Source: Candidatus Lindowbacteria bacterium RIFCSPLOWO2_12_FULL_62_27
GTDB taxonomy: Bacteria; Lindowbacteria; 2-12-FULL-62-27
DNA: 43,779 nucleotides
Direction: 5' to 3'
NCBI GenBank assembly: GCA_001784175.1
Contig: MFPR01000031.1
Coordinates: 1 to 43,779 of the forward strand
The notes below the pieces were generated by a model. That model saw only the letters and a list, made by a program, of their open reading frames with translations. It was not told the origin of the DNA and searched no databases. This document shows, in pieces, positions 3,609 through 30,321 of this stretch. The first letter of the stretch is position 1. Each line of letters starts with the position of its first letter. The translations under genes and the position numbers were made by a program.

Positions 3609-3757
3609 GAACGTGTGAAAAAATTGAATAAACCACTTTTTATCCACGAAGGGACACGAAGCTGACACGAAAGCGAATCAAGATATTCAATATGTTATCT
3701 AAATGTTTCTTCGTGCCCCTTCGTGCTCCTTCGTGGATAAGGGATTTATTCACACGT
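3609..3757. repeat. CACGAAG/TTCGTG inverted-repeat element (copy 1)
   Basis: The left arm carries CACGAA at 3645, 3655 and 3666. The right arm carries TTCGTG at 3710, 3720 and 3730, so units recur every 10-11 bases on both arms. The match continues outward: TATCCACGAAGG on the left mirrors CCTTCGTGGATA on the right, and ACGTGTGAA near 3611 mirrors TTCACACGT near 3750. The whole element can fold into one long imperfect stem of about 60 bases per side. A related element lies at 22148-22250. It ends 7 bases before the stop of the gene at 3764-5404, so it could also act as a 3' mRNA structure. Confidence 0.8.
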
Positions 3758-3763
3758 TCGGAC

Positions 3764-5404
3764 CTACGGGCGGGCTTTCTGCTTCCTCTTCTCCCCTTTT
3801 CGCGCCATCTCCGTCTGCCGCTGCCGGCCAGACGGCTCCTGTTCCTGCTTGCGGATCAGAAACATCGCCTCTTTTGCGTTCGTGACTGTCGTCGACGCGA
3901 AATTCTTCCAGTCGCTGGATTTCTGCGACAGGTCGATCGAATAAATCCGGTAATAGTACGTGTCGCCCACGATGATGTTTTGATGGATGTAGGTCGAACT
4001 GTCGGAGTGGACCGTCACCAGCGTGATCCAACTGTTGGTGTCCCCCGGGTTTTCCGAATACTCGATCCGGTACGAATCGATGTCCTCCACCTGCGACACC
4101 TTCGACCACGTGATCAGCACCGTGCTGTTGGTGTTCGGCATCGCCAGAAAATCGGTCGGCGCGTACGGCGTGTCCTCCCAATTGGCCGACACCACCGCCG
4201 TCACCGTCGTCTCCGGCACCACGAGTCGCCGCATCGTGCTGGCGTTTGGCGTCGCGTCGATCCCAATCACCGAATTCGCGCCTTTCATGTAGGGATTGTA
4301 CACGTCCGTTTCCCATGTCCCACCGTTCACTTCGAATCCATACTCATACACCCCCGCGTTCGCTATGTTCACGTCCGCGCGCCAGTAACTGTCCGGATTC
4401 TGTTTCATCGTCGCCGGCGCACCCCAGTCCCAGCTCCCCTTCGCCTTCACCGCCGTCACGCCCGCCCGGGACGGAAAGAGAAACAGGTGCTTGCGCCCGC
4501 CGCTCACTGGAAACTCGAACGTCTTGTTCGCGGCCGTGTCGACCACCACAAACTTGAACGCCAGGTCAAACCCGCGGTTGAGCGCGATCGTGTCGCTCCA
4601 CCAGTGGCTGTCGGCATTCTCCCGGTACAACTGCCGTTCCGACCATCCCCCCCCAGTGTCAAATCCTACATAGACGACGCTGTCGTTCGGCCGGCCCAGG
4701 AAAACCCGGAACTGCACGTTGGTCCGCACACCCGGCCTCACCGTCACCGATTCCCCGGAGGGACCCGGGAGCGGCGAGAGCAGCGGTCCCGTGTCAAAAT
4801 ACGCATCGACTGCGCGGACATGGAAAAAATAGACGGAATCGTTGGTCAGATTCGTGCAGGTGGTGGTCGTGACGGCAATGGTGTCCTTCCGGAACAACAG
4901 CCACGTGTCGAACGCGGGGCCGGTGTCGTAATAGATCCAGTATCCGCCCCCGTACCGCACGTCGTGATTGCGGTCGGACGACCCGGCGGACCACGTCAGC
5001 GTCACCTGCCCGGTGTCCGAATAGGCCGTGAGACCCGTCGGCGCATCCGGCGTGTCGGCCCAGTTCATGTCAACGGTGGTATTGACCGTCGGGATCGTGA
5101 AGGTTCGCCGACCGGTGGCGGTGGCAAAATCGGGCTCGAATTTCGTGTCGCCAAGCTGCAGAAACAGTGCCTTGAAGGTCACCACCGAATTCGGCACCAG
5201 CCACAGGTCAATGTAATTGCGTCCGTTCACGTCCGTGTCCGTCATCGCGTACTCCCGCCAGGCCCCTTGCGTGTCCGTGAAGACCCCGCCCACGCCCCGA
5301 GCGACCGTCCACCACGAGTCGGCCACGTCGGTGTCGCGGGCGTCGGAAGGGCAGGGAAAAGTCAAACCCAGGACGAGGAGCGACAAAACAAGTATTTTAA
5401 TCAC
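3764..5404 (-). CDS. Secreted multi-domain protein with E-set/glycogen-binding-like and FN3 modules
   Basis: A 546-residue protein with no catalytic motif. It begins at a GTG at 5402-5404 with a strong GGAGAG site 7 bases upstream, and its start overlaps the preceding stop codon (GTGA), so translation is probably coupled. Residues 1-22 are a signal peptide (MIKILVLSLLVLGL...). The order is: an E-set-like module (~25-115) ending in a TIPTVN...WADTPDAPTGL linker; a fibronectin type III-like module (~115-215); a beta module at ~225-300 (FKFVVVDTAANKTFEFPVSGG); an AMPK-beta/CBM48-like module (~300-395; KAKGSWDWG, then YEYGFEVNGGTWETD); and a second FN3 (~410-510). The C-terminus is a very basic tail of ~35 residues (MARKGEKRKQKARP) of unknown role. 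Context suggests an extracellular alpha-glucan-binding accessory protein (inference). Confidence 0.8.
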   Translation of the reverse strand: MIKILVLSLLVLGLTFPCPSDARDTDVADSWWTVARGVGGVFTDTQGAWREYAMTDTDVNGRNYIDLWLVPNSVVTFKALFLQLGDTKFEPDFATATGRRTFTIPTVNTTVDMNWADTPDAPTGLTAYSDTGQVTLTWSAGSSDRNHDVRYGGGYWIYYDTGPAFDTWLLFRKDTIAVTTTTCTNLTNDSVYFFHVRAVDAYFDTGPLLSPLPGPSGESVTVRPGVRTNVQFRVFLGRPNDSVVYVGFDTGGGWSERQLYRENADSHWWSDTIALNRGFDLAFKFVVVDTAANKTFEFPVSGGRKHLFLFPSRAGVTAVKAKGSWDWGAPATMKQNPDSYWRADVNIANAGVYEYGFEVNGGTWETDVYNPYMKGANSVIGIDATPNASTMRRLVVPETTVTAVVSANWEDTPYAPTDFLAMPNTNSTVLITWSKVSQVEDIDSYRIEYSENPGDTNSWITLVTVHSDSSTYIHQNIIVGDTYYYRIYSIDLSQKSSDWKNFASTTVTNAKEAMFLIRKQEQEPSGRQRQTEMARKGEKRKQKARP

Positions 5405-6483
5405 AAATCAACTCTCCGGATCACGCCCATCACCCGGCGCGCGAAAATCGGGTCGGGCGCGTCCTCCCGCGTCATGTACACGACCTGTCCGTGAGACTGG
5501 ACGTAGTTCCAATCGAAATGGTGGACCTTGAACCGGACCCGCACCGGCGCGCGGGGCACGGCCGTGTCCTGCGGCGTGGTGTCGGACATCAGGCGCAGGA
5601 AGGGTGAATCGTTGACCGTGCCGGACGTCAGGCCCTTGTAGGCGTCGACCGCGACCAGGACGTAGTAGTACGTCGTATTGGCCGACAATCCCGCGTCCGT
5701 GTAATTGGTCGCGGATCCATCGACCTCCTTGACCAGCGTGTAAGAGGTCGTGCTGCCCGTTGTGTTGCGATAGACGCGGAAGAGTCCCCCCGCGATCACG
5801 TCCGCCGCCTTGAAACTCTCGCCGCCCGTGCCCCAGCTCCCGTACGGCGCGCCCCACGTCAGCCGGACGGTGGTCGTGTCGACCGCCATGGCGTCGAAAT
5901 TGGTGATGGTGATGGGCCGCTCGCCGAAATTGGCGTAGACATAGAACGTATCGCCGGGATCCAAATCCTGCGGCACCGTGATGAGCCGCCGGGCGTCGTT
6001 GCTCGTCCCGACCGTCCCGTATCGAACGGCCGGCGCCGACGTCGAATCGACCTTGAGCGGCTGGGTCCCGCTCTGAATGGCGCCGCCGGTGGGAATCACG
6101 TCATAGTACGTCGTGTTCGGCTGCAATCCCGCCGGCGCGCTGGGACCGGTCTTGGCAAAGAAAAGGAAATTGTAGGTCGCCTTCGGCGTCAGTTGGATGA
6201 TCGCCTGGTACGTGCCGTCGCCGACCGCCGTCATGGTCTGAAGGCCGTTGGTGATGGACGCGCGGCTGACGTCCGACCAGACGGAGGTCTGCGTGCCCGG
6301 GTGGACGGCGATGTACCGCGGGACCTGGGCCCAGGTGTCGGAGGCGTAGGTATCGGCCGCTTGCGCGGGGCTGAGAGAAGACAGGATACAGAATACGGAA
6401 TACAGAAGTGAGAAAAAAAAGCATGGAACCTTCTGTCTTCTGTCTCCTGTCTTCTGTCTTCTCTCAATTCCTGAAATCGACAT
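5401..6483 (-). CDS. Secreted E-set/FN3 protein whose signal peptide is encoded by a hairpin repeat
   Basis: A 360-residue protein starting at an ATG at 6481-6483, which overlaps the end of the giant amylase gene by 20 bases. The predicted leader is MSISGIERRQKTGDRRQK followed by a hydrophobic stretch (FFFSLLYSVFCILSSL) and SPAQA. The basic part and the hydrophobic part are encoded by opposite arms of the inverted repeat at 6373-6465. Mature residues ~43-185 form an E-set-like beta domain (GDGTYQAIIQLTPKATYNF, later RRLITVPQDLDPGDTFYVY), similar to modules in the neighbouring genes. Residues ~190-300 are a fibronectin type III domain (VRLTWGAPYG...TYYYVLVAVDAY). No catalytic residues are seen. 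The stop overlaps the next gene by 4 bases (GTGA). Probably a glucan-binding or structural accessory of the same operon (inference). Confidence 0.8.
   Translation of the reverse strand: MSISGIERRQKTGDRRQKVPCFFFSLLYSVFCILSSLSPAQAADTYASDTWAQVPRYIAVHPGTQTSVWSDVSRASITNGLQTMTAVGDGTYQAIIQLTPKATYNFLFFAKTGPSAPAGLQPNTTYYDVIPTGGAIQSGTQPLKVDSTSAPAVRYGTVGTSNDARRLITVPQDLDPGDTFYVYANFGERPITITNFDAMAVDTTTVRLTWGAPYGSWGTGGESFKAADVIAGGLFRVYRNTTGSTTSYTLVKEVDGSATNYTDAGLSANTTYYYVLVAVDAYKGLTSGTVNDSPFLRLMSDTTPQDTAVPRAPVRVRFKVHHFDWNYVQSHGQVVYMTREDAPDPIFARRVMGVIRRVDL
6373..6465. repeat. AGACAGAAG-type inverted repeat inside a signal-peptide coding region
   Basis: Two 36-base arms, 6373-6408 and 6430-6465, are reverse complements at 30 of 36 positions and are separated by 21 bases. 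Each arm is built of AGACAG/GAAGACAG-like short units. The whole element lies within the first ~40 codons of the gene at 5401-6483, and its outer end reaches the last codons of the giant amylase gene at 6464. Confidence 0.85.
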
Positions 6484-9400
6484 ACACGTATCCTCCCGGG
6501 GTGACGTTGACGACGTTGGAGTTGGGGCTTTCGAGCACCAGGGCGCCGGTATCGACGGAGCGGACGGCGAAGGAATAGCTGGTGCCGTTGGTGAGGCCGG
6601 TCACATGGTAGTTGGTGTTGGCCAGGATCGCCGAATTGACTTTGGTGAACGCGCCGGACGTTTGGAGCTGATAGACGTTGTATCCGATCAGGTCCTGGTC
6701 CTTGGTGTTGGCGTCCCAGAACAGCCACGCGGCGCCCGAGTCAGGCTCGCTCTTCAGGTTCGACACCACGTCCGGGTCTTCCTGCCAGTCGTCGAAAAAT
6801 GTTTTCGAGGCCACGGAGGGCACGGTGACTTCCCGGTTCCGGGACGACGTCGTGAAGTCCTTCTCCTGCGTGTCCGCCGCGAAATAGCGGTACTGCAGGT
6901 TGAATCCGGTCAGCATGTCGGTCGTGTAGGTCCAGGTGTACAGTCCGGAATCAAGCATGGCTTTTCCGCTCCATGTGATATAGGCGTCGTTCGAGAGGAT
7001 CTTCACATTCCCGAACGTAGTGATGGTCCCGACATCCACGGTAAATGTCAACCGGGCGAGCTTGGCCGACAGGACCGTTGAGCTGTCCGACTCGTTCTGG
7101 AAATCGTCCACGGCCGACACGGCGTAATAGTACTGCGTGTTGGTCTGCGCCGTGCTGTCGTTCCAGAAGGGCGAAAAGGACGGGCTGATGAGGGACGCGT
7201 TCAGTTTTTTGTCGGAGGTGAGATTGAAGTTCGGCGTGGCGCTGCGGTAGACGTTATAACCGGCAAGGTCGGCCTCGGTGCTGTAGTCCCATTTGACGAC
7301 GACGCTGTTCAGCCCGCCATTTTCGCCGATGACGCCGGCCGGTTTGGCGGGCGCCGTGTCGTCCGTGTTGGTCGTCGGACGGGCCGATACCGAATCGGTG
7401 GGCAGGGAACTGAAATTCTTGTTGATGTCCACAGCCTTCATCTTGTAATAATACAGCGTTCCGTTGGTCAGGCCGCCGTCGGTGTACGAGATGACGTCCT
7501 TGCCCACGCCGGTCAGTGAGGTGAACGTGACGCCGTCGGTGCTTCGGTGGATTTCATAGTGGCTGATGTCGGCCTCCAAATTGAACGACCATCCCAGCCG
7601 GATGGCGCCGTCGCGGGGGACGGCCGACAGGCCCTGCGGGGCTTGGGGCGCCTGGTCGCCCACGACGTTGAACCGGTTGACCACGGCGAACGTGTGGTCC
7701 GGCGTGTTGGGAACCAGGAATTGCCGGCACGGCTCATAGGTATAGGAATTCCAGTGCGCGCCCGGACCGGCCGCGTTGTAATCGACAAAACAGTCTCCGT
7801 CGTTTTGCGCTCCCGCCAGGGAAGTGGGATTGCATCCGCCCGAGTTGATTTCAGCAATGAAGATGTAATTACAGCTCAACGTCGGATCGAGGTTCACCGC
7901 CGCCTCATAGATGCCGCGGCCTTTCAAGGTCATCTGCACCGGCAAGAAGCCGGCGTCGTAGCGGATGGCCGAATTGTTGTTGAAATCGAATTTGCCCAGG
8001 ACGGCCGGATTTCCCGCCACGTACATTTTGGTGATGCTGCTCGTGTTGATGCCTCCCGGCGCGCTCGTCACATCCGTCTGGAACGTGACCTTGACGGTGC
8101 CCGGCGTCGCCATCGCCTCGTTGGAAAACCCGCTGAGGTTGCCGTTGCGGTCGAGCGCCTTGATTTTGTAATAGTAGGTATCGCCGTTGACGAGCTTGTA
8201 GTCGAAATCGTTGTCGAAAAACGTCGACCGGATGACTTCGATGTAGAGCGGGGGACTTGCGTCGTTCTGGGTTTTGGAACGATAGATGTAATACGATTCG
8301 ACCGTGTCCGAGGATGGATTGTCGGGCCATTCCAGTTCCACCGCGCGGTCGCGCGCGACCGCCATGAGTCCGGACGGCGGCTGGGGCGGCGTGTTGTCGA
8401 CGTAGCCGGCGGGGTCGGTCGCAAGATCGATGGTGGAGACGACGTCGACGCCGTCCGTGAAATTCCAGAGCGCCCGGTACTCGTAGGGCGCTTTCCAGAT
8501 GTTCATCCGGCGCTGGGTGGTGCCGCCGGAAGAGGTCACGATGTCGACGATCCAGTCGGTGGTGCCGGAATTTTTGCTTTCCCGGGTCCAGACGGCCTTG
8601 TCATCGATGGAGACGACCGCGTCGTTCTGGTTCACGCCGTTGATCTGGACCGTGATCTGCGCGCGGGTTTTGCCGAAACTGTTGACCTTGAGATAGGCCG
8701 CCGTGCTGTTTCCGACGCTGAACGCGCTGCTCAGATTTCCGGAACCGTCGGTCGTCGCGGTGCCGCCGGAGAACCAGTCCTTGTAGGTTTTGTTGGCCTG
8801 CAGCGCCCCAATGGCGATCCCACCCGACCCGAAGGTGCGGGCGCCGGACTGACTGGCGTTCATCAGCACCAGAACTTCCTCGGTGGTCGTCCGGCCCCGG
8901 ATGAAGGCCATGGCCTTGCCGTTCTCACTGTACGACCAGTATTGATCCTTCTGATCATATCGGAACGCCGGAAAAATCTGCCGGGCACGCTGGGCCGAGG
9001 CGGCGCTGGCCTGGATGTCGCCCACCGAACCGTCATGAACGATCTGCCCGACCACGCTGCCTTCGTGATTCCAGGGAAACCGGCGGGTCGTGCCGAAAGC
9101 TGATAATTCGCCGGTCGACTGCCAGTCGGGGTAGGTCAGACCTCGTTTGCCCATCATCACCAGTTCGTCGCCGTAGAAAATATAGGGCACACCCGGCATA
9201 CTGCCCTCCCAATACATGATCATCAGCAAGGCGCCGATCGATTTCGACCAGGTGTGCCCTTCGCCCGTGTAATGGTAGGCCCGGTCGTGGTCATGGTTTT
9301 CATAATAGATCGTCATCACCGGCGTGCCGTTCGCGTTCAGCGTGCCGTAATCACTCTCCCATCGGCTCTTGAGGTCGTCACTGGTGTTGCCGCTGCCGGT

Positions 9401-12400
9401 CCATTCAGCCGTCGCCCACCCTTTGAGCCGTTCATCAAACCCGCCCATATGGATCATCCCGATCAGGCGGTTGCCGTCGCCGCAGTAGGCGCTTTGGACA
9501 TCAGCTCCGGACGGAGCCTCGCCGAAACTGTAGAGATCCGGCGCGTAGTCCTTCAATTTGTTGCCCCAGTACGCGTAGAAGGGAAGCCCGCGTTCGGGAG
9601 GAGACGCGTCCGCCGTAAATTTCGCGTTGTCGACCCGGAGGAAATCCATGCCCAACGCGTACAGGAACCGGGCATGATCGGAAAAATACTGGCGGGATTC
9701 CGCGACACCCGGCAGTATGGCGTCGCCGAACATCGGGAAGGTCGTTCCATCGGCCTTGAGGTAATTTCCAGAATTTTGAGTCACGAGAAACGTACTGGAC
9801 CCGCCGGAATGGGGCGTGATCCAGTCCTGGCCGCATCCAAGATTGTGGCGTTTGGCCTCCTTGATCGTGCGCACGTATTCGTCAAAGCCCTTGTAGGTGC
9901 CCCACGTGGTGGGGTTGGCGTAGGACCAGTCGACCGCGTACTGATTTTTCGGGTCGTATCCCCAGCCGGTGTTGCTTCCGAAATCGAGCGCGGGGCTGAA
10001 ATTGATGTGGGTAATGCCGAACCAGTTGAAATAGCCGTCCTTGATGTAGTCGATCAATCCCTGCAGGTCGCCGTTGATGTCGTACTTGCTGGTGCTGGAA
10101 GCGCCGGTTCGCTGGTTGTCCTTCCGGCCGTCCCACCAGCGGCTGATCCAGAGGTTGTAAATCTGGATGTCCCGCATTTTCCCGAAATGGGTGGTGCGGC
10201 TCGGGTTCAAGGGCGCGGCGCCGAACGCCGCGGTGTCGAGTTTAACGCCGGAAAGGCGGGTGGAGGAATCGACGCCGACCGCGAGCCACGCGTCGACCGA
10301 CTGGTCCTGGACGTCATTCCAAGTGGACAGGCGATGGGTGACGACGTCGACGAAGTTGGCGTTGTTGGCGCCGAACTGGCCGATGCCGCCGTTGTCGTTC
10401 CAGAACACGGTCGGCGTGATGCGGACGGTGTCCGACGTGTACTCGGCGGCGCCGCCGATGAGGCTCAGGGGCACGCAGATTTCGACGAAGCTGTCCTGGG
10501 CGTTTTCGGTGTAGCGGCCTTCGCCGACGATGGTGAAGTTCTCGTTGTAGATCGTGACGTCGTCGTTGCCGGTCCGGGCGCTGATCAGATATTCCCAGGG
10601 CACGGACGAATTCACGAACCCGTCCTCGGCGTAGATGTTCCTTCCGAGAAAGGCCCGTTCGCTGGACAGCGACCCGATATCGAGCGCCACCTGAATGTAC
10701 GGCGTGCCGTCTTCCCAGCGGAAAAATTTCATGAAGAGATACAGATTATAGGGATCCATCGCGAACCGGACCTGGTCGAGGTCGAGGTACGGTTCCTTGG
10801 ACGCGTTGTCGTTCCGGTGATCGCTCTGACTGTCGCGCCAGGCGGCTTCGTACTTGGTCAGGATGTACGTCTCGCGGCTGTTGGACAGGCCGAGATTCGG
10901 CGCCCAGTCGCTCGAATCGCCGTTGACGTTTCGCATGCTGTAGTAGATCCCGTCGCTCGGCGGGCTGTTGGGACTCCAGTTCTGTGTCGCTGCGGTGTCG
11001 CCCGCGCGGATGCGGGCGTAGTAGGTCCTCCCGCGAACGAGCACGGCGCCGGAATCCGACCGGATCGTGTAGTTCGTGGTGCACCCGGCGGCCGCAGTGC
11101 CGATGAGGGTATCGACGAGGACGACTTCGACGAAATTCGAATCGTGCGAGATTTCGATCGCGTAATTCTGGATGACCCACGTGTTGGAATGCGTGGCCGG
11201 CGCCCACTGCCAGTAGATGGCCGAATCCGCCGATTCCTTGTCCTGATACCGGTTCATGTTGTTCTTGTTGTTGATGTCCTGCGGACGGTTGACGGTGATG
11301 GTCGGTTTGGTCGTCCGGAAATTCCAGAGCACCGTGTCGGACAGCGTGCCGGTCCGGTCGCGGGCGCGGACGCGCCAGTAATAGATGGTGTTGGTCGGCA
11401 TGTCGGCCGGGATCGTGTAGCTGGTGTCGTTGCCGGAGACGTTCACGCGGTACCGGATGACGCCGTCCAGGTTCGTGTCGGTGCCGAGCTCGACCAGATA
11501 GGAGGTGACGGTGTCGTCCGCATCGGAATCGGTCGTCCGGGTCCAGCGAAGCGTGGGCGCGAGCACGTCCGTGGTGTCACCGCTCCTGGGGAACGGGCCG
11601 GTGCAGGTATTGGGTTTGAGGTTGGCCAGGAGGCCCGCAGAGGTGTAACGAAGCTGAACCCAGAAATCGATGTCGCCGTCCGACAGGTCCTCCTGGTCGG
11701 CCGAGATCGACCGGGCGGCGTCGTTGGTGAACGAGGCGGTCCCGTCGCGGGCGGGAATCGAGACGGCATCGAGCGCGTCGTAGGCGCCGAATTCAACGGT
11801 CGAGTTGATGGCCGACGCCTTTCCGACGCGGTTCTTGAACGACGCGATGGCGATCTGGATCGTATCGGACCCGACAAGCCCAATGGCCGATCGCGAAACT
11901 TTGCCTTCGATCACGTAGGCCGCCGTGTCCATCTCGATGCCGGCGGTCGTGTCCGTCCACCCGGCGGCGGTTTGAATCTCCAGAATCGCGCTGTCCGACA
12001 CGTGGGTATGCACCACAAGCTGGACTTCCGCCGCGAGGGCCGGGGCGACGTAGCTGTCCCCGAAGGAGGTCTGGCTCTCATCCCCGATCGTGGCGTTCCC
12101 GGACCCGGACGCGCCGTCGGTATCGATGGCGATGGCGATGTTCGGATAGTTGGCGACGGTGAGTTTCCGCAGGGACACGCGGAAATAGAGGTTCTCGGTA
12201 TCCATTTTCAGCCGGCACTCCTTGAAGTCGAAATGGTCCGAGTGGGTGACGACCGCGCGCTCCTCGTTCGACTTGTCCAGCCATATCCATTCGCTGTCGG
12301 TCACGCGGGCGGTGTTGATCTCGGCGGGCGCGGTCCCGGTCCAATCCGTGAACGCGCCGAGATTGACCGCGTTGCTCTGCGTCACGGCCGACGTCTCCCG

Positions 12401-15400
12401 CCCGTCCCCCACGCTCACCCGACAGTACCAGACGTCCCCCTGTGCCGTGCTGTCGGCGCTGAGGGTATCGGTATAGGGCGGAACGCTGTCGACGAAAACG
12501 AGCCCGGCGACCGCGCTGTGATTCTGGTACCATTCGAACTGATAGAAAATCGTGTCGCCGTCCGCATCGACGGAACCGGTGCAGGACGCATTGAGGCTCG
12601 AGCTGTTCAGAGGCGTCAGGGGCGTGAGCGTCACCGAATCGAGGGCGGTCGGGACGGCGTTGATCACCGAGAAGACGAAGGCGCTGTCCTGCGCCGCCGT
12701 CTTGGACAGGGTGACGGTGGAACTCGCGTTGTCGCCGTACACGTAATTGTTCTGGGCCTCGCTGATCTGAATGTAATACCGCACGCTGTCCCCCTTGGCG
12801 AACGACGCGGGAATGACGCCTTCGAAAAATTCGTCCGCGCCGTTCGTGTAGGCCGAGGCCATCGCGACGCTGTCCGACGTCGCCCAGGTATCCTTGGAAT
12901 AGACGACAAACAGGTTATTGAAATTCCCTATGGGCGAGGCGCCCGCGGTGATGGTGATGGACTGGGATTTGACGGGCGTCACCGGGCTTCGCATCGTCTC
13001 CTTGCCTGCGACCGGCTGGTCCGCCGGACGGTGGTAGACGTTGGAATTGCTGGTGGACTGGATGACGTACCGTTTGGCGAGCGTGGCGTCGATGCGCGCG
13101 AAGGTGTCGCTCCAGGTGCTGACGGCGTTGCCCTGAAAGGGCGTAATGTCGGAGATGCCCGGTTTGGGGCTGGCGTGCCGGGCGATGTGAACGATCCCGA
13201 CCGTATCGCCGGCTTTGAGGCCGAGGGTGGTCAGGGAAACCTTCAGCTCGCCCCAGCGGTTGGATTCCGAAACCTTGAAATCCGTCCCGCCGGTCATGCC
13301 GGTGGAGGTCCAGTCCGTGTCCCTGCTTTTGTAGAGCGTCATGCCCCCGTAATCCTGGGCCTGGTATCCCATCCATGCGTTGGCCCAGAAATCGGCGCTG
13401 TATTTGTAGACCCGCGTGGCCGGCGAGACCCCCGTTTTCCACGGATCGCCGGATGTGCCCGCCGGGTTGGTGTCGGTGAAGAAAATAAACTCGTAGTGTC
13501 CCGGCTCCGACACGCCGTTTTCCTTGTCGTAGTGCCGGCCCATCGCCTCCCAGCCGAGGTAGAGGTTGCTGATGTCGTTGGTGATGTAGAGTCCGCGGGC
13601 GAGACCGGTGTCGTCAAAGGTGAAGTCGTCCTCGCCGACGTCGGGGACGACGCCGTTGGGCCGCTGGGCGCCGAGGCCGGTCGTATCGGCGGTCGATCCC
13701 CACCCCGGATCCTTGGCGCCGTCGATGAACGGCGTGAAGGCCTTGACCTTCGTTTCGCCGGCGTCCCGGAACGCAGCGGAGCTTCGGAGATAGCCTGCCG
13801 CATTCGGGGTGGTTGGCGCGGGTGTCAGCGAATCGTAATAGATGTAGGACGTGAACGAGACCGGAGCGCTGTCGACGGCGTTGGAATTGGGGGCGGAGGC
13901 TTGGACGTTGCCGTTGTCGCCCTGGTTGGTGTAGAGAAGAAATTTAGCCTGTGTGATCGGCGCTTCCGGCGTGTCGCCGAGGTCTTTCCAGGGGATGCTG
14001 ATTTCGGCGAGTCCGCCGCCGTTGTTTTTGGACACGGCGCCGTTCCAAGTCTGGCCGCCCACCCAGGCCGAATCGGAGGCGCGCCACTTGCGAAGGTCGG
14101 TGTAATCCGCGCCGCCGCCGTTGTTGGGGGCGTAGAGGAACACATAGTCGGGCCGCATGCCCGAGGGAAGATTGTGGACACCGCTCCAGCTTACCGTGGT
14201 TTCAGCGCCGAAATTGGTCACGTGACCGGTGTCGATATAAATCTGGATCACGTCGTTGGCGGCGGTGGTCGGAAAGGCGCTGCCGCGGCTGACGGCCGCA
14301 AAGAGGAACGTCGGGTCCCACCAGAGCCGGTAATCGCGAACGCCGTACGCCGGCAGGATGGTGGTGTCGGGCCAGTCGGCCAGGCCGGCGTCGATGTTGA
14401 CGAGGGTCTTGAAGAGGGAATTGGGAACGAATGTGTCGGAGGCGTCCAGGAACTGGTAGAAATACGTCAGATCGGCCTCCGATCCGCCGCCGGGGTTGGC
14501 GGCCGGATACGACGTCCAGATGTTGGATTCGGATTCATACTGCTGGAACGCGACGATGTTGAACGTGTCCGGGCGTTTTTTGTTGTTGGTGAGATACATC
14601 CAGGGAATCCGGACTTCGGTGTATGGGACGCCGGCCGTACCGATGACACGTCCCCACCCTGCCGATGTATCGATATCGTTTCTGTTGAGCATCAGGCGCC
14701 AGCTTGAGTTGTTCAGCACCTGCTGGAACTCGATGCCCGGTGTGCTGGCGGAATCCTCGATGCAGAACGAGGCATCCCACTTGGCGCCGGTGTCGGTCGG
14801 GAGGTTATGGATGCCGCCGCCACCCCAGTCGATGCTCGTGTTGATGCCGCTTTCGGGCATGATGTCCATGTAGACGAAGAAATCTCCGCTGTTGGAGGTG
14901 TTGATGTCCTTCGGCTGATAGGCAAGGTACAGGCAGGTGTCATCCCAAGCGAGCATGAACCAGATATTCTCGTTCGAGTCCACCTGCATCTTCTCGTCGC
15001 CCTGCCAGTCGGAGACGCTGCCGTTGATGGTGATCGGCTCGTAGTAGATGTGGATATAGCGGGTCACCGACCAGCCGGCCTGGTCGTAGAGCCGGACAGC
15101 GACGGCGTTGACGTTGACGGTGTCGAGCGCGGCAAAGGCCGGGCCGGACAAAAACCAGTCCCCGACGCGGCTGTCGGCGTCGGTGGTGAAAACATCATAC
15201 CATGCGCCGCCGACCTGAACCTGGGCGGTGTCGAGCAGGGACACGGAGTCGCCGTTATAAAAATCGATCTTGATCGCCGGCGCGCGCGTGAAGGTGTCGG
15301 CCTTGAAGACGTAGGTGTCGTCCCGGACGATCATGGTTGGCACGGTGTCGTCGACCCGGAAGGTCTGGGAATACCGGATCGTCGTGGTGTCAAATGTGCC

Positions 15401-18400
15401 GGGCGAGGGAACATTCACGAGCTTGACGACCACCGTTTCGCTGGTGTCGGTCACCGTCGAGACGAATTTGTTCAGGTTGAGCACGAACGAGTCGGTCTGG
15501 GTGTCGGTGGCGTCGCTGTCGTCGGCGACCGTAAAAGTGCAGAAATACGTTTTGGGGCTGACCGTCGTGTTTTTCATGTAGACGGTCAGACCCGCCCACG
15601 TCACCGACTGGCCGGCCTGGAACCATCGGTCGGTGTCGACCGCGCCGTTCGTGACGCCGGCGCCGGTCAGCGTGCCGGAAAGGGTCAGAACGTTGGAATA
15701 AGTCCAGGAAATGGTGGAATCGGTCCATGTGCCCGTGTCGACGTAGGTGTCGGTGGCGCGGGCGCCGATGAGATAATTGGTCGCGTTCGCGAAATTCCAG
15801 CCGAACGCGAGTTTCCAAGTACACGTCACGTCGTTGCCGCTGATGGAGGTGTCGAGGGTGACCGAGTCGCTCAGGTAGGTGTCGCCGGACACTCCGATGG
15901 CGGTGTCACCGCGGACAGAATAAACCCAGATGGTGTCGGCACCGTTGGTGATGCGCAGGTCAAACCGCTGGATGGAGGCGCCGCCGTTGGCGTCCGTGTA
16001 TTTGACGCGGATGCGGTACGTGTCGCCGGGAACGAAGGCCGGGGAGCCGAGAGTCTGGATGATGTCGGTGGCCGCGACGGTCGGCGCGTCGTTGACGCGG
16101 TTGGTGCGGCCGGGCGTGTAGTTGTTCTCGGTCCAGTTGGTCGTGGAGTTGCTGTCGACGCCGTTGTCCGTCAGCATCATGGATTTTTGGCTGCCCGAGA
16201 CGTCGCTGGCGGCGGTGTAGGAGAAGGAATCGTAAGCGGTCCAGATGCCGGTGTCGATGGCGTGGATCATCTCGGGCATGGTTTCGCCGGCGGTGTCGGA
16301 CCGGTGCCACGCGAAATAATCGACGATGGTGCGTGAATCCTGCGTGGTGCGGTTGTTGTAGAGAGCGACCTGATTGAAATTCGTCTGGACGAAAAAGTTG
16401 CTGCCGGAATAATAAATGCCGCTGTCGGCGACGCCGGCTGAGAGGTTGATGTTGTTCGGCGCGGTGTCGCGGTAGATCGTCACGAAGTCGCCCGGACCCA
16501 TGTTGATCGAGGGCGAAATGAAAAAGTCCCGGGTGTCGGCGCGTTCGGCGACGTACCAGTTCCGAAGGTCGATCCAGCCGAACTCGGTGTTGTTGAGAAA
16601 AAAGAGTTCAATGAAGGCGCTGTCGGCGTAGGACCCGGCCTGCGGGTAGACCTCGTTGATCTTGACGGCGGTGTCGTAGCCGGTGACGTACGAATCGAGC
16701 GCGCGGGCGGCCGGGGCGGCTAGAAGACCGGCCGGCAGGGAACTGGTGCCGAAGGCCGCGCCGGAATCAGCGGCGACAAAGAGCGTGCTGTCCTCCCAGA
16801 GGGCGATGGTGTTTCGCTGGGCGGTCGTGAGGACGAGCGTGACGCCGTTGGAGTCGCCGGCGTTTTTGACCGACGCGCCGGAGAGGTTCTGGAGGTTGCC
16901 GCTGCCGTCGGCGTTCGCCTGGACGGTGCAGCGCGAGACGTCGACGGTGCTCGTGTCGATGGGCCGCGAGAAATACAGGAACAGTTCCTTGTTTTTGTGG
17001 CTGTAGGTGGACCGGGTCAGGTAGGGATAGGTGTCGATCATGACCGAATCGGATTTGGTCGTGTCGATTTTCGTCCGCGCGGTGATTCCGCCAACCGACG
17101 GGAGGCGCGCGGAGTCCTCGGCGCTCGCGTACGTCGTCGATGAGCCCAAGAGCGTGCGCAGAATCCCGCGAAACGAACTTGAATTGGTGCCGTTTTCGTA
17201 CGCCACAAGGTCCAGATTGCCCGACCCGTCGATTTCGACGACCACGGCCTCGGTGTTGCTCGTGTTGATGTTCGTCGCCGTGACCAGGACGTAGACCGTG
17301 TCGCCCGCGAGAAAGACGTTGCGGTCCGTCGAGAAATCCGAGTCCTTGAACGCGACCGACGTGATCGACGTCGGCCCGCCGCGGGCGGCGTTGGTGATGC
17401 CAGGCAGAAACGTGAGTTCGATCTGCTGCCATTCGGCGGATGCGGCGCCGTCGGAATCGAGGCCGTCGGTTTTCCGGATGAGGGGGCTGTCGGTGTTGCC
17501 GCTCGTCGTCTGCACGTCGATCGCCACGCCCGCACGCCATATCCCGGCGGTCACGGCGGTGTCGTCCCATAGCGTGCTGCCGATCGAGCCGTTGTTGCTC
17601 CACGTCACGAAATCGATCAGCGTGTCAGATCCGAGCTGGCTTCCCCGGTACAATTCGAGCGCGCCGCTGTCGTCGGACCCGCCGGCGCCGCCGATGTCCC
17701 AGGCCGTGGCCGAATAGAAATGCCGGACACCGAAACTGTCGGTGTAGTTCGTGCCGGTCGCGGGATGAAATACGACAAACTTACCCGGCTGCAAAAGAGT
17801 GTTGGACGGAAAGCTGTACGAGTTGTTGGTGACGGGATCTTTGAGCGTGTAATTGGAGATGTCGAGGACATAGGCGCGGGGATTGTAAAGCTCCACGTAC
17901 TGCTCGGCGGCGACGGCCGAGTTCCAGAGCACCTCGTTGATCTTGACCGTGCCGCGGCGAACCTGGGAATCGTTCCGGGGATTCGTGTCGGGACCGGGAT
18001 TTTCCCAGTAATAGTAATAGGCCAGCGTGTCGCCGACCTCGGTGTAGGTCGCGGGGTTCTGGGTCGGAAAGGAGTGCGAGATGTTCCGCGTCGCGTCCCA
18101 TTTCTGGTAGGCGAGGATGCCGAGCGTCCTCGGAAACCCGCCGAGATTGCTCCAGCGGATGCGGAACTCGCTGAAGGTCGTCCCGGCCGCCGCCCCGATC
18201 GTGCCGCCCTTGATGCTGCTGTCTCCCGGATTGTTCCACTGGGTGTCGACGGCGTTTCGCACCGATTTGTAGTCTCCGCCCTCGACGGTCAGCAGGTAGT
18301 CGGCCTTGAAGGGAAGGAAATGATATCCGCCATCCCAGTCGTCGGAAAACTCCGTTTCCCCCGAAGTCGATCCGACATCGATGGCGACAAACAGGTCCTG

Positions 18401-19027
18401 CGAGCCGGCCGCGAATCCATCGTAACCGATGTACAGAAAGGTCGTGTCCCAGTAGACGTGCAACGTGTCGGCGGCCTCGCCGTTGCGGTCGTCCATGCCG
18501 AGGACGGATTTGGCGGGCCATTCCTTCCACATCTCAACCGATGACGCATTCCATTTGTTCCCATCTGTGCGAACCTGCCCCGCGCCAACGCGAACGACTC
18601 CGTCGGCCCCGTCATCGTCCGAGTACAAGTAATAGTAGCCGCTGTCGGTCAATTGAATCAGGATATTATCATTGGGTGGATTATCGGTAGGCACGTCGAA
18701 ATCCGGATTTCCTTCGGATGAGCTTTGATTCTTATTGATCGAGCCGCCGTTCCCGCGCCATTGCAGACCTGCGCCGAAATTCACACGAAATTTGAAATAC
18801 TCGGTGTCCGGCAGATCCCTTGGCACATGGACAATATTGAAGTAATCGCCGTTGCCCTGGTCAACCCAAAGGGAATCCGTCCCCCAGTTGTCGTACAGGC
18901 CGGTCCATCCGAACTGAGTGATCGCAGCGTGGGCGGCAACCGGACAGAGGACAACCCACACAAGGCCGGCCAGAAGGCTCTGCAGGCAAAGCCTTAAACG
19001 AAATGATAATCGCCACACGTATCCCAT
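6464..19027 (-). CDS. Giant secreted modular alpha-amylase family protein (GH13), 4187 residues
   Basis: Starts at an ATG at 19025-19027 behind GGGGAGGG, with a signal peptide ending near PVAAHA. The order is: a CBM9/DOMON-like module (~150-335); lamin-tail domain 1 (~358-480, VKINEVLWNS); an Ig-like region; lamin-tail domain 2 (~785-920, VKINEVYPQ); further beta modules; CBM9/DOMON-like modules near 1336, 1546, 1769, 2226 and 2703 (INGSVSDW, DAGLADW, DGAKDPGW, FTDWTG, NGDSSDW); and FN3-like spacers. The GH13 barrel starts at ~2951. Its catalytic residues are present: Asp3133 in FLRVDNAKF, Glu3170 in SFGEAPS and Asp3246 in ENHDHDR, with region I reading DWITPH. After ~3546 come FN3 domains alternating with E-set/starch-binding-like modules to the end. 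No FlgD-type sorting domain is seen. An active extracellular alpha-glucan hydrolase or transferase with many binding modules is likely; exact specificity is unknown. Typical amylases are 450-700 residues. Confidence 0.92.
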   Translation of the reverse strand: MGYVWRLSFRLRLCLQSLLAGLVWVVLCPVAAHAAITQFGWTGLYDNWGTDSLWVDQGNGDYFNIVHVPRDLPDTEYFKFRVNFGAGLQWRGNGGSINKNQSSSEGNPDFDVPTDNPPNDNILIQLTDSGYYYLYSDDDGADGVVRVGAGQVRTDGNKWNASSVEMWKEWPAKSVLGMDDRNGEAADTLHVYWDTTFLYIGYDGFAAGSQDLFVAIDVGSTSGETEFSDDWDGGYHFLPFKADYLLTVEGGDYKSVRNAVDTQWNNPGDSSIKGGTIGAAAGTTFSEFRIRWSNLGGFPRTLGILAYQKWDATRNISHSFPTQNPATYTEVGDTLAYYYYWENPGPDTNPRNDSQVRRGTVKINEVLWNSAVAAEQYVELYNPRAYVLDISNYTLKDPVTNNSYSFPSNTLLQPGKFVVFHPATGTNYTDSFGVRHFYSATAWDIGGAGGSDDSGALELYRGSQLGSDTLIDFVTWSNNGSIGSTLWDDTAVTAGIWRAGVAIDVQTTSGNTDSPLIRKTDGLDSDGAASAEWQQIELTFLPGITNAARGGPTSITSVAFKDSDFSTDRNVFLAGDTVYVLVTATNINTSNTEAVVVEIDGSGNLDLVAYENGTNSSSFRGILRTLLGSSTTYASAEDSARLPSVGGITARTKIDTTKSDSVMIDTYPYLTRSTYSHKNKELFLYFSRPIDTSTVDVSRCTVQANADGSGNLQNLSGASVKNAGDSNGVTLVLTTAQRNTIALWEDSTLFVAADSGAAFGTSSLPAGLLAAPAARALDSYVTGYDTAVKINEVYPQAGSYADSAFIELFFLNNTEFGWIDLRNWYVAERADTRDFFISPSINMGPGDFVTIYRDTAPNNINLSAGVADSGIYYSGSNFFVQTNFNQVALYNNRTTQDSRTIVDYFAWHRSDTAGETMPEMIHAIDTGIWTAYDSFSYTAASDVSGSQKSMMLTDNGVDSNSTTNWTENNYTPGRTNRVNDAPTVAATDIIQTLGSPAFVPGDTYRIRVKYTDANGGASIQRFDLRITNGADTIWVYSVRGDTAIGVSGDTYLSDSVTLDTSISGNDVTCTWKLAFGWNFANATNYLIGARATDTYVDTGTWTDSTISWTYSNVLTLSGTLTGAGVTNGAVDTDRWFQAGQSVTWAGLTVYMKNTTVSPKTYFCTFTVADDSDATDTQTDSFVLNLNKFVSTVTDTSETVVVKLVNVPSPGTFDTTTIRYSQTFRVDDTVPTMIVRDDTYVFKADTFTRAPAIKIDFYNGDSVSLLDTAQVQVGGAWYDVFTTDADSRVGDWFLSGPAFAALDTVNVNAVAVRLYDQAGWSVTRYIHIYYEPITINGSVSDWQGDEKMQVDSNENIWFMLAWDDTCLYLAYQPKDINTSNSGDFFVYMDIMPESGINTSIDWGGGGIHNLPTDTGAKWDASFCIEDSASTPGIEFQQVLNNSSWRLMLNRNDIDTSAGWGRVIGTAGVPYTEVRIPWMYLTNNKKRPDTFNIVAFQQYESESNIWTSYPAANPGGGSEADLTYFYQFLDASDTFVPNSLFKTLVNIDAGLADWPDTTILPAYGVRDYRLWWDPTFLFAAVSRGSAFPTTAANDVIQIYIDTGHVTNFGAETTVSWSGVHNLPSGMRPDYVFLYAPNNGGGADYTDLRKWRASDSAWVGGQTWNGAVSKNNGGGLAEISIPWKDLGDTPEAPITQAKFLLYTNQGDNGNVQASAPNSNAVDSAPVSFTSYIYYDSLTPAPTTPNAAGYLRSSAAFRDAGETKVKAFTPFIDGAKDPGWGSTADTTGLGAQRPNGVVPDVGEDDFTFDDTGLARGLYITNDISNLYLGWEAMGRHYDKENGVSEPGHYEFIFFTDTNPAGTSGDPWKTGVSPATRVYKYSADFWANAWMGYQAQDYGGMTLYKSRDTDWTSTGMTGGTDFKVSESNRWGELKVSLTTLGLKAGDTVGIVHIARHASPKPGISDITPFQGNAVSTWSDTFARIDATLAKRYVIQSTSNSNVYHRPADQPVAGKETMRSPVTPVKSQSITITAGASPIGNFNNLFVVYSKDTWATSDSVAMASAYTNGADEFFEGVIPASFAKGDSVRYYIQISEAQNNYVYGDNASSTVTLSKTAAQDSAFVFSVINAVPTALDSVTLTPLTPLNSSSLNASCTGSVDADGDTIFYQFEWYQNHSAVAGLVFVDSVPPYTDTLSADSTAQGDVWYCRVSVGDGRETSAVTQSNAVNLGAFTDWTGTAPAEINTARVTDSEWIWLDKSNEERAVVTHSDHFDFKECRLKMDTENLYFRVSLRKLTVANYPNIAIAIDTDGASGSGNATIGDESQTSFGDSYVAPALAAEVQLVVHTHVSDSAILEIQTAAGWTDTTAGIEMDTAAYVIEGKVSRSAIGLVGSDTIQIAIASFKNRVGKASAINSTVEFGAYDALDAVSIPARDGTASFTNDAARSISADQEDLSDGDIDFWVQLRYTSAGLLANLKPNTCTGPFPRSGDTTDVLAPTLRWTRTTDSDADDTVTSYLVELGTDTNLDGVIRYRVNVSGNDTSYTIPADMPTNTIYYWRVRARDRTGTLSDTVLWNFRTTKPTITVNRPQDINNKNNMNRYQDKESADSAIYWQWAPATHSNTWVIQNYAIEISHDSNFVEVVLVDTLIGTAAAGCTTNYTIRSDSGAVLVRGRTYYARIRAGDTAATQNWSPNSPPSDGIYYSMRNVNGDSSDWAPNLGLSNSRETYILTKYEAAWRDSQSDHRNDNASKEPYLDLDQVRFAMDPYNLYLFMKFFRWEDGTPYIQVALDIGSLSSERAFLGRNIYAEDGFVNSSVPWEYLISARTGNDDVTIYNENFTIVGEGRYTENAQDSFVEICVPLSLIGGAAEYTSDTVRITPTVFWNDNGGIGQFGANNANFVDVVTHRLSTWNDVQDQSVDAWLAVGVDSSTRLSGVKLDTAAFGAAPLNPSRTTHFGKMRDIQIYNLWISRWWDGRKDNQRTGASSTSKYDINGDLQGLIDYIKDGYFNWFGITHINFSPALDFGSNTGWGYDPKNQYAVDWSYANPTTWGTYKGFDEYVRTIKEAKRHNLGCGQDWITPHSGGSSTFLVTQNSGNYLKADGTTFPMFGDAILPGVAESRQYFSDHARFLYALGMDFLRVDNAKFTADASPPERGLPFYAYWGNKLKDYAPDLYSFGEAPSGADVQSAYCGDGNRLIGMIHMGGFDERLKGWATAEWTGSGNTSDDLKSRWESDYGTLNANGTPVMTIYYENHDHDRAYHYTGEGHTWSKSIGALLMIMYWEGSMPGVPYIFYGDELVMMGKRGLTYPDWQSTGELSAFGTTRRFPWNHEGSVVGQIVHDGSVGDIQASAASAQRARQIFPAFRYDQKDQYWSYSENGKAMAFIRGRTTTEEVLVLMNASQSGARTFGSGGIAIGALQANKTYKDWFSGGTATTDGSGNLSSAFSVGNSTAAYLKVNSFGKTRAQITVQINGVNQNDAVVSIDDKAVWTRESKNSGTTDWIVDIVTSSGGTTQRRMNIWKAPYEYRALWNFTDGVDVVSTIDLATDPAGYVDNTPPQPPSGLMAVARDRAVELEWPDNPSSDTVESYYIYRSKTQNDASPPLYIEVIRSTFFDNDFDYKLVNGDTYYYKIKALDRNGNLSGFSNEAMATPGTVKVTFQTDVTSAPGGINTSSITKMYVAGNPAVLGKFDFNNNSAIRYDAGFLPVQMTLKGRGIYEAAVNLDPTLSCNYIFIAEINSGGCNPTSLAGAQNDGDCFVDYNAAGPGAHWNSYTYEPCRQFLVPNTPDHTFAVVNRFNVVGDQAPQAPQGLSAVPRDGAIRLGWSFNLEADISHYEIHRSTDGVTFTSLTGVGKDVISYTDGGLTNGTLYYYKMKAVDINKNFSSLPTDSVSARPTTNTDDTAPAKPAGVIGENGGLNSVVVKWDYSTEADLAGYNVYRSATPNFNLTSDKKLNASLISPSFSPFWNDSTAQTNTQYYYAVSAVDDFQNESDSSTVLSAKLARLTFTVDVGTITTFGNVKILSNDAYITWSGKAMLDSGLYTWTYTTDMLTGFNLQYRYFAADTQEKDFTTSSRNREVTVPSVASKTFFDDWQEDPDVVSNLKSEPDSGAAWLFWDANTKDQDLIGYNVYQLQTSGAFTKVNSAILANTNYHVTGLTNGTSYSFAVRSVDTGALVLESPNSNVVNVTPGGYVYVDFRN

Positions 19028-19148: not shown

Positions 19149-20249
19149 TCAGAACTCAAAAACCGTATTGTCATCCTTGTCCTTGCTGGAGACTTGAGGG
19201 TCCGGATGCCACGCGTGTTCGCCCTTGTCGTTTTCGACCACGAACTTGTACGCATGCGCGCCGGGCGTCAGCGCGACGATTTTTTTCCAGATTCCGTCTT
19301 CCCCGCGTTCCATTTCGAACGAGGGGTCCGTCACGCGGCCGTTGTCGTTATTGGCGAAGTTGTTGAAATCGCCCGCGAGATACACCTTCTGCGCGTCTTT
19401 CGATTCGAACGTGAACAGGTATCCACCCTCGACCGGTCGCGGTGCGGACGCGGCAACCGCCGGACGACGATCGCGCAACGTCGCCATCGTGTTGTCGTCC
19501 TTGTCCCGGCCGGACACATGCAGATCGGGATGCCACGAACACTCCCCTTCGGCATTCGCCGCCACAAATTTATAATGGACCTCGCCGGGATTCAGCGGCA
19601 ATACCTTCCGCCACACGCCGTCACCGCCGCGCTCCATCTCGCAGGCCGGGTCGCTTACCCGGCCGTTGTCGTTGTTGGCCCAGTTGTTGAAGTCGCCGGC
19701 CAGATACACCTTGTGCGCATCCGCGGACTCGAACGTGAAAAGAAATCCTCCCGCCACGGCCTTCGGCGCGCCCGGCCCGGTGTCGTTGTCCTCGGGAGAG
19801 GGGAGAGGCGCGGCGCCGGCGGCGCGGACCGAAGCCAAATCGAGCACGGTGTTGTCGTCCTTGTCGCGCTCCGTGACGAACGGGTCCGGTTGCCAGGCGC
19901 ACTCCCCTTGGTCGTTCGCCACGACGTATTTGTAACGGACCGCACCGGGCTCGAGGCTCAGGATTTTGGTCCAGACGCCGTTTTCCTGCCGCGTCATTTC
20001 AAAGGCCGGATCATTCACCCGGCCGTTGTCGTTGTCGGCGAAGTTGTTGAAATCGCCCGCGAGATAGACCTTGTGCGCGTCTTTCGATTCGAAGGTAAAG
20101 AGGTATCCCCCCTCGACTGCAACGGGCGCCGCGGCGGTGTAGATGACCGGGGCGGCCGTCTCCTGCGCGGCGGCCGGGTCAGCGCCTCCGGCGCCCCAAG
20201 TGCCGGCGAGCGCCAGGAGGGTGAAGAGCATTAGATGACGAGTTTTCAT
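19149..20249 (-). CDS. Secreted protein of three tandem glycogen-binding (AMPK-beta/CBM48-like) domains
   Basis: A 366-residue protein from an ATG at 20247-20249 with a GAGGTGA site 6 bases upstream. After a signal peptide of ~28 residues it consists almost only of three ~91-residue repeats at ~47-137, 167-257 and 275-366, joined by Ala/Pro linkers. Each repeat reads GGYLFTFES, KVYLAGDFNN, NDNGRV, an acidic or aromatic strand, PG...YK(Y/F)V, C/H-(A/S)W(Q/H)PD and ends KDDNT. These are hallmarks of the AMPK-beta glycogen-binding fold, with Trp, Lys and Asn at sugar-contact-like positions. The same subtype forms the N-terminus of the amylase at 32528-35344. There is no catalytic domain. It probably binds extracellular or periplasmic alpha-glucan and presents it to the enzymes encoded on either side (inference). 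Part of its signal peptide is encoded by one copy of a 36-base inverted repeat. Confidence 0.88.
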   Translation of the reverse strand: MKTRHLMLFTLLALAGTWGAGGADPAAAQETAAPVIYTAAAPVAVEGGYLFTFESKDAHKVYLAGDFNNFADNDNGRVNDPAFEMTRQENGVWTKILSLEPGAVRYKYVVANDQGECAWQPDPFVTERDKDDNTVLDLASVRAAGAAPLPSPEDNDTGPGAPKAVAGGFLFTFESADAHKVYLAGDFNNWANNDNGRVSDPACEMERGGDGVWRKVLPLNPGEVHYKFVAANAEGECSWHPDLHVSGRDKDDNTMATLRDRRPAVAASAPRPVEGGYLFTFESKDAQKVYLAGDFNNFANNDNGRVTDPSFEMERGEDGIWKKIVALTPGAHAYKFVVENDKGEHAWHPDPQVSSKDKDDNTVFEF

Positions 20250-20429
20250 GAAGGATCACCTCGCTTTGTATTTAACTCCGGTCAAACCTTAGTTCGGCAT
20301 CAGGCGTTTGGCAAGGCGTCCAGATTCGTGTTACTCGTACCGGATCAAGACGACTCCGAACACAGTAAGGTTCGGTATCCTCGCGTGAACCTGGCCGGCA
20401 CTTGGGGCGCCGGAGGCGCTGACCCGGCC
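20172..20429. repeat. Perfect 36-base inverted repeat spanning a gene junction
   Basis: Bases 20172-20207 and 20394-20429 are exact reverse complements over 36 positions (GGCCGGGTCAGC... and ...GCTGACCCGGCC) with a 186-base interval. The left copy encodes part of the signal peptide of the triple glycogen-binding protein (LAGTWGAGGADPA). The right copy encodes RVSASGAPSAG near the C-terminus of the GH66 enzyme. The interval holds the GH66 stop codon and the start codon and ribosome-binding site of the next gene. Confidence 0.9.
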
Positions 20430-22103: not shown

Positions 22104-22147
22104 GAGCAATACACTGAAATGGATCGATAAACAGGGGAACCCATTGG

Positions 22148-30016: not shown

Positions 30017-30202
30017 ATGGCAAAACTCTACGGAATCAAGACCAAGGCCTTGGTTCAGGCGGTCAAACGAAACCCGGGGAAATTTCCGCCGGACTTTGTT
30101 TTCCGATTGACGTGGAAGGAACACCGTTCTTTAAGGTCACAATTTGTGACCTTATTGACCTCAGTGTATTTAAAGTATGTCATCCTCAACCGCTCATGGT
30201 GA
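30017..30202 (+). pseudogene. Truncated ORF6N-domain (phage/antirepressor-type DNA-binding) gene fragment
   Basis: The plus-strand frame reads MAKLYGIKTKALVQAVKRNP, PDFVFRLTWKE and SLRSQFVT, which matches the core of the ORF6N domain (typically LAELYGVETKALNQAVKRN...FPEDFMFQLT...SLRSQFVT). The usual residues before LAELYG are missing, and after SQFVTL the family sequence is lost where the hairpin pair at 30190-30271 approaches. The domain is associated with phage antirepressors and mobile-element regulators. This copy is a fragment and probably non-functional. Confidence 0.6.
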
Positions 30203-30271
30203 GCTTGTCGAACCATGAGCGGCCTGTGTCGAGCGGCCCCGCTCATCCTTCGACAAGCTCAGGATGAGCGG
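30190..30271. repeat. Pair of hairpins with mutually complementary loops (REP-like element)
   Basis: Hairpin A (30190-30222) has a perfect 11-base stem CCGCTCATGGT/ACCATGAGCGG around the loop GAGCTTGTCGA. Hairpin B (30239-30271) has a perfect 11-base stem CCGCTCATCCT/AGGATGAGCGG around the loop TCGACAAGCTC, the exact reverse complement of loop A. The sequence family (CTTCGACAAGCTCAGGATGAGCGG-like) is a familiar dispersed repeat in environmental genomes. About 50 bases without features follow before the amylase stop at 30322. Confidence 0.85.
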
Positions 30272-30321
30272 TATGCGGCGGCAGACTAACATTAGAAACG
30301 CTGGACTCAATAGCGCGACTC

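Follow-up and report, generated by a model that had tools for sequence, protein, structure and literature searches.

The 43.8-kb window, that is, the whole stretch of DNA analysed here, encodes on its reverse strand a 360-amino-acid protein predicted to be of exported type (5401..6483, -). Its ATG start codon (6481..6483, -) is the sole in-frame ATG, GTG or TTG before residue 84, the next such codon, which lies inside the conserved domain. A Shine-Dalgarno-like GGAGG (6492..6496, -) is located 8 nt before the ATG, within the end of the upstream gene. The latter encodes 4187 amino acids (6464-19027), overlaps gene 5401-6483 by 20 nt, and ends in a TGA (6464..6466, -) that coincides with the outer end of a hairpin: on the coding strand, the first three hairpin bases are this stop codon. 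An earlier, sequence-only reading of this DNA had labelled the product an E-set/FN3 protein; an fn3 match is indeed present at residues 193-281, but it is weak (E=0.005) and falls below the Pfam cut-off. The same reading had named a true start downstream of 6373 as grounds for giving up its proposal, and no usable start is found there before the conserved domain.

A repeat search of the window places the inverted repeat at 6372-6408/6430-6466, with 37-nt arms that are 84% complementary and a loop of 21 nt, 95 bases in all; the repeat previously described at 6373-6408/6430-6465, within the first ~40 codons of the gene, is thus real and extends one base further at each outer end. Only a few inverted repeats in the window are as strong. 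The RNA fold of 6360-6480 (-) reaches -44.0 kcal/mol (z -5.45), compared with -27.05 +/- 3.11 kcal/mol for dinucleotide shuffles of the same segment (n=200), none of which was as stable (0/200). Both arms are tandem heptads of the AGACAGA/TCTGTCT type, AGGAGAC and TCTGTAT units occurring also, and arms and loop together are the codons for residues 7-37. The leader reads MSISGI-ERRQKTGDRRQK-VPCFFFS-LLYSVFCILSSL-SPAQA, followed by ADTY. Its basic n-region, residues 7-18 (ERRQKTGDRRQK), is encoded by the 5' purine-rich arm (6430..6466, -; AGACAGA/AGGAGAC heptads), the beginning of the hydrophobic core, residues 19-25 (VPCFFFS), by the 21-nt loop with its T8 run (6409..6429, -), and the remaining core, residues 26-37 (LLYSVFCILSSL), by the 3' pyrimidine-rich arm (6372..6408, -; TCTGTAT/TCCGTAT/CCTGTCT heptads). 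The c-region SPAQA (6358..6372, -) has, by inspection, an AxA cleavage site before Ala43. Inspection of the leader as a whole finds the anatomy of a Sec signal peptide, namely, an R/K-rich n-region, the core VPCFFFSLLYSVFCILSSL, and AQA before Ala with small residues at -3/-1. Both arm-encoded peptides that had been translated earlier, the basic n-region and the hydrophobic core, are correct. The hairpin at 6372-6466 supplies the whole predicted signal peptide of the product, and this leader is probably functional in Sec export.

Why should such a hairpin read as a leader? Since 7 = 1 mod 3, a perfect heptad array gives one cyclic 7-residue peptide in all three frames. For the purine arm, this cycle is RQKTEDR, which is hydrophilic (mean Kyte-Doolittle -3.4); for the pyrimidine arm, it is SVFCLLS (cyclically FCLLSSV), which is hydrophobic (mean Kyte-Doolittle +2.2). 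Stop-free reading in every frame is a property of 69% of all heptads, and in hydrophobicity TCTGTCT belongs to the highest 3.4% of the stop-free ones. Inversion leaves an inverted repeat unchanged, and together with the frame-independent cycle this means that the hairpin reads as a basic/hydrophilic and then a hydrophobic segment in any frame and orientation, presupposing a start codon and an open loop. The proposal that an AGACAG-type hairpin yields a basic-then-hydrophobic leader thus stands, and its restriction to one frame can be dropped because all frames are equivalent.

Dispersal of the repeat and its likeness to IVS ends

The repeat is dispersed, as had been supposed: a whole-genome pattern search found the AGACAGA-type array family in a cluster, C4, and at seven other sites. 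The C4 cluster holds six arrays or array pairs inside 4.4 kb, including a perfect 36-nt inverted heptad array that surrounds a 23S_rRNA_IVP gene (PF05635, E=1.5e-35) and a perfect 42-nt inverted array that surrounds a second IVP copy with an internal stop. Of the IVP genes, 4/5 in this genome and 14/18 in the other hairpin-bearing genomes have inverted repeats on their flanks, for the most part with a period of 7 or 8. The sequences of the inverted arrays differ among the PF05635 genes (L145, L146, L268-L291), as if there were one repeat type per IVP cassette. In the intervening sequence (IVS) of C. burnetii, GACAGAT/GACAGAA heptads lie beside the S23p open reading frame, and the number of units differs between strains (PMC4990558). 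Like IVS/S23p elements (23S_rRNA_IVP, PF05635), the window family has terminal inverted repeats with GACAGA-type heptads, and the window hairpin itself shows this feature. Unlike them, the window copy is outside 23S rRNA, sitting between two protein genes in a window with no Rfam match; its arms enclose the 21-nt loop alone, with no S23p/IVP gene between them; and it is translated as a predicted signal peptide. Without an S23p gene in its loop, the hairpin is at most a solo or miniature IVS derivative, and the heptads at IVP cassettes and in the C. burnetii IVS lead us to read it as a solo derivative of IVS-type ends.

Four of the seven sites outside C4, the window gene among them, read as signal peptides. 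These leaders include those of a PorV-like protein with a weak DUF5723 match (MNYQRCLFLFCLLYSVFCILPGPAHA, followed by LGGYDEYF), an M23 peptidase on C1 (...LRLRLLGSSVFCLLYSVFCSGVFCSGVRGDYAWPLG), and an Alginate_exp porin on C43 (...ENTGDRRQETGDRILLLLACGFWLLAPSPAYGQ). Two further sites fall in untranslated stretches that precede rho and leuS; at the last site, a short array sits where an epimerase-like gene begins. The M23 and porin leaders, 2/4 of the heptad leaders in this genome, have no ATG, GTG or TTG in frame. The M23 peptidase (L034:8216-8330; G000:C1:230215-230329) has a conserved D-Y-x-W-P-L start and would need a CTG or ATT start codon. In the porin gene (L035:7345-7450; G000:C43:54344-54449), an ATGATG overlaps the upstream stop exactly one heptad out of frame, making this a candidate slippage (ON/OFF) locus or, alternatively, an assembly error.

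Other repeats were seen along the way. Of the other dispersed hairpins in this genome, the majority precede a coding start and do not fall in a leader; many are just past a stop codon. A near-identical palindrome, AAAGTGATATCATGATATCATGATAGCTATCATGATATCATGATATCACTTT, has at least six copies (G000 C28:372852, C1:18818, C1:176280, C1:193429, C1:247383, and C43:28142), mostly at a stop codon or within about 30 nt after it. In the window, further strong inverted repeats comprise hairpins at 30189-30272 (CCGCTCAT..CCTTCGACAAGCTCAGG) and 3640-3740 (ttatccacgaagggacacgaag) and a 44-nt inverted repeat (93%) at 20167-20434 with arms 180 nt apart. Two exported-type genes of the window have leaders that are dispersed-repeat-like, with KNIFFVSVRDRSWPFVA, a period-10 array, at 20331-22109 (-) and the peptide PLSRQRRERVGVRV at 30322-32454 (-).

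Over 1.63 Mb of sequence from the window's genome, which like the others is a metagenome assembly, we counted arrays of period 7, 8, 10, and 11 with a score of >=14, using home-made callers for genes and signal peptides. Such arrays are present in 6/225 putative signal-peptide leaders, a count that includes the window gene itself, versus 1/972 other gene starts (Fisher p=2.5e-4) and 1/1197 mid-gene segments (Fisher p=9e-5), and synonymous shuffles of the 225 leaders give an expectation of 0.12 array leaders. Between genes, arrays are common, being present in 1.7% of the upstream segments of the same genome. In G005, from a second phylum (253 kb), arrays are found in 3/33 leaders, two of them of lipoproteins, versus 1/184 other starts (p=0.012), this lone nonleader array having masked N bases in the scored stretch, with N against N counted as a match. 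Mid-gene arrays number 3/217 in G005, indicating that the tolerance of arrays outside leaders is above zero. Hairpin strength alone shows no clear signal-peptide enrichment (IR score of >=18 in 4/244 versus 7/946). Taken together, the enrichment counts indicate that arrays often occur between genes and that those within coding sequence are concentrated in signal peptides.

Leader replacement between relatives

In a homologue search of the wider phylum, covering three genomes, the sole close homologue of the 360-residue protein (in G002) is 63% identical, and the alignment begins at residue 39, directly behind the hydrophobic core. The leader of the G002 protein is a different purine/pyrimidine array (GGAAGAAGTGCGAAAAAGGC... 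/ CTTCTTCAGTCTTCTTCAGCC) with an unexceptional fold (z -1.3). Homologues carrying the same leader without a repeat in the DNA, which had been named as evidence to the contrary, were not found, and the G002 leader is unrelated. Of the two origins that had been offered for the export signal, replacement of an old signal by a dispersed repeat has the better support, ahead of creation of a new one. Among the M23 orthologues, G002 has a leader of its own (AGACAGAAG.../CTGACTTCTGTCTTC), and that of G001 is ordinary. Of 20 Alginate_exp leaders from three genera, 8 carry arrays (period 7, 8, 10 or 11) that exceed their synonymous shuffles, seven with the lowest attainable value (p=0.005) and one with p=0.025; the arrays belong to several repeat types, and the start of the mature protein (MSAEELRRE) is kept in most.

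A GTDB-wide scan for the hairpin pattern returned 44 stretches from many phyla, and lptE alone (1/44) was a clear leader among these exact-pattern hairpins. Open frames over three of the hairpins (L071, L103, and L100) were dropped as leaders for want of a family match; a DHH/DHHA2 protein (L096) and an AMP-binding protein (L109) were rejected because the enzyme is cytosolic or the likely start lies after the hairpin. In Nitrospinota UBA9963, the hairpin is the entire lipoprotein signal of LptE (PF04390, E=1.5e-11), MTAENRRQKTEDRLLFPIFCLLLSVICLLYLPA, followed by CGYSLVG. Five near relatives have five other lptE arrays, CAGTAGG/GCTTACT, ACAGAAG/TGCCTAT, GATGCAA/TTCTTAC, GCAATGA/TCATTGC, and AGAAGTC/TCTGTCT-like. 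All six heptad leaders from these Nitrospinota genomes, each different, are in frame (6/6) with the lipobox kept, and the array boundaries match closely across relatives, with a start where the upstream gene ends on one side and the lipobox on the other. Between G005 and G010, the closest pair, identity is 96% over 160 nt upstream and 98% over 306 nt downstream, but the leader itself is only 56% identical and its alignment has 46 gapped columns. An array like that of G010 is present elsewhere in G005, the lptE arms of G009 and of G011 are built of different heptads, and the leaders of more distant lptE genes are ordinary. At the level of sequence, these comparisons establish repeated leader replacement between relatives in several exported families, unrelated repeat hairpins taking over while the protein behind them is barely altered.

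Origin of the repeat-encoded leader

We consider it likely that a solo IVS-type inverted-repeat element in the first codons of gene 5401-6483 reads as its signal peptide, having replaced an older leader. Short-period inverted-repeat elements of this kind (IVS/S23, four-helix-bundle type) are dispersed, with arrays that are frequently located at a stop codon or shortly past it; because gene 5401-6483 starts before the upstream stop, the element takes up its first codons. Stop-free purine heptads specify a hydrophilic peptide and their complement a hydrophobic one, the hairpin giving an n-region followed by an h-region. A cytosolic protein would be harmed by such an array, while a signal peptide may require little beyond charge and hydrophobicity, and the former leader would be lost after the array had arrived. 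We infer that the element arrived by insertion, as opposed to recombination between arrays, and that arrays stay in leaders through selection for tolerance. The best reading for the arrays at large is that those of IVS type persist in coding sequence chiefly at places where their codons spell out a signal peptide anew, hence recurrent leader replacement.

Other explanations have to be weighed against this. It is possible, though on balance doubtful, that a repeat hairpin has formed the leader all along, its arrays evolving in concert in place through slippage and arm-to-arm gene conversion. Heptad unit number does change, as in the C. burnetii IVS (PMC4990558), and the lptE arrays of G005 and G010 have a common CAGxAxx register; however, evolution in place is hard to reconcile with 56% identical leaders beside a 98% identical coding flank, with the unlike heptads of the G009 and G011 arms, with the G010-like array elsewhere in G005, and with the ordinary leaders of more distant lptE genes. 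The hairpin could also be a terminator-like or regulatory structure of the upstream gene that merely overlaps the open frame, the leader peptide being incidental. The arm that begins at the upstream TGA, the many dispersed hairpins of this genome just past stops, and the untranslated arrays upstream of rho and leuS point that way, but we regard this as improbable: no other start precedes the conserved domain, so that the protein would be unmakeable without the hairpin, six different lptE arrays all preserve frame and lipobox, and arrays are more frequent in the codons of signal peptides than in other coding sequence. Convergence has scarcely any probability left. Purines dominate the codons for basic residues and pyrimidines those for Leu and Phe, and signal peptides, naturally purine-rich and then T-rich, might form imperfect hairpins by chance; yet amino-acid-preserving synonymous shuffles reach the array score in only 4/9000 cases, and the same DNA repeat also occurs outside coding sequence and at the ends of IVP cassettes. 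Array scores falling outside the synonymous-shuffle distribution refute this explanation.

Beyond replacement of a leader by a solo IVS-type element, a bolder idea, which we hold only tentatively, is that IVS-type heptad hairpins might be portable frame- and orientation-independent signal-peptide modules, swapped between exported genes, with export made phase-variable by heptad slippage. It is prompted by the C43 porin, whose ATGATG is one heptad out of frame with a repeat-encoded leader.

Known repeats and significance

Cyanobacterial STRR are dispersed heptanucleotide arrays. The Rickettsia palindromic elements of Ogata et al. are reportedly palindromic repeats found in frame in protein genes, where they are tolerated; they occupy various protein positions, whereas the arrays described here are of short period, take the place of N-terminal signal peptides, and vary from one relative to the next, and the likeness is conceptual only, by description and not by sequence. 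TAACTGA heptads of Beggiatoaceae are dispersed, often just upstream of starts, with length changes mostly in 7-nt steps, but these arrays are described as direct repeats located mainly between genes and possibly regulatory, and not as signal-peptide code (PMC4679880). PARCEL repeats are dyad-symmetric coding repeats that spread among genomes and were co-opted in membrane-targeted proteins; they comprise 25 residues and form protein domains, whereas the window arrays form leaders instead (PMC2996958). A literature search, mostly outside subscription journals, turned up no account of bacterial signal peptides encoded by repeats.

The arrays offer a concrete and testable path from a noncoding selfish repeat to a functional protein segment, and the lptE set is a natural experiment of one gene in six species with six repeat-built leaders. 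For annotation, they serve as a warning that open frames across such hairpins can be genuine coding sequence. Repeat-built leaders could also help explain why signal peptides are poorly conserved between orthologues.
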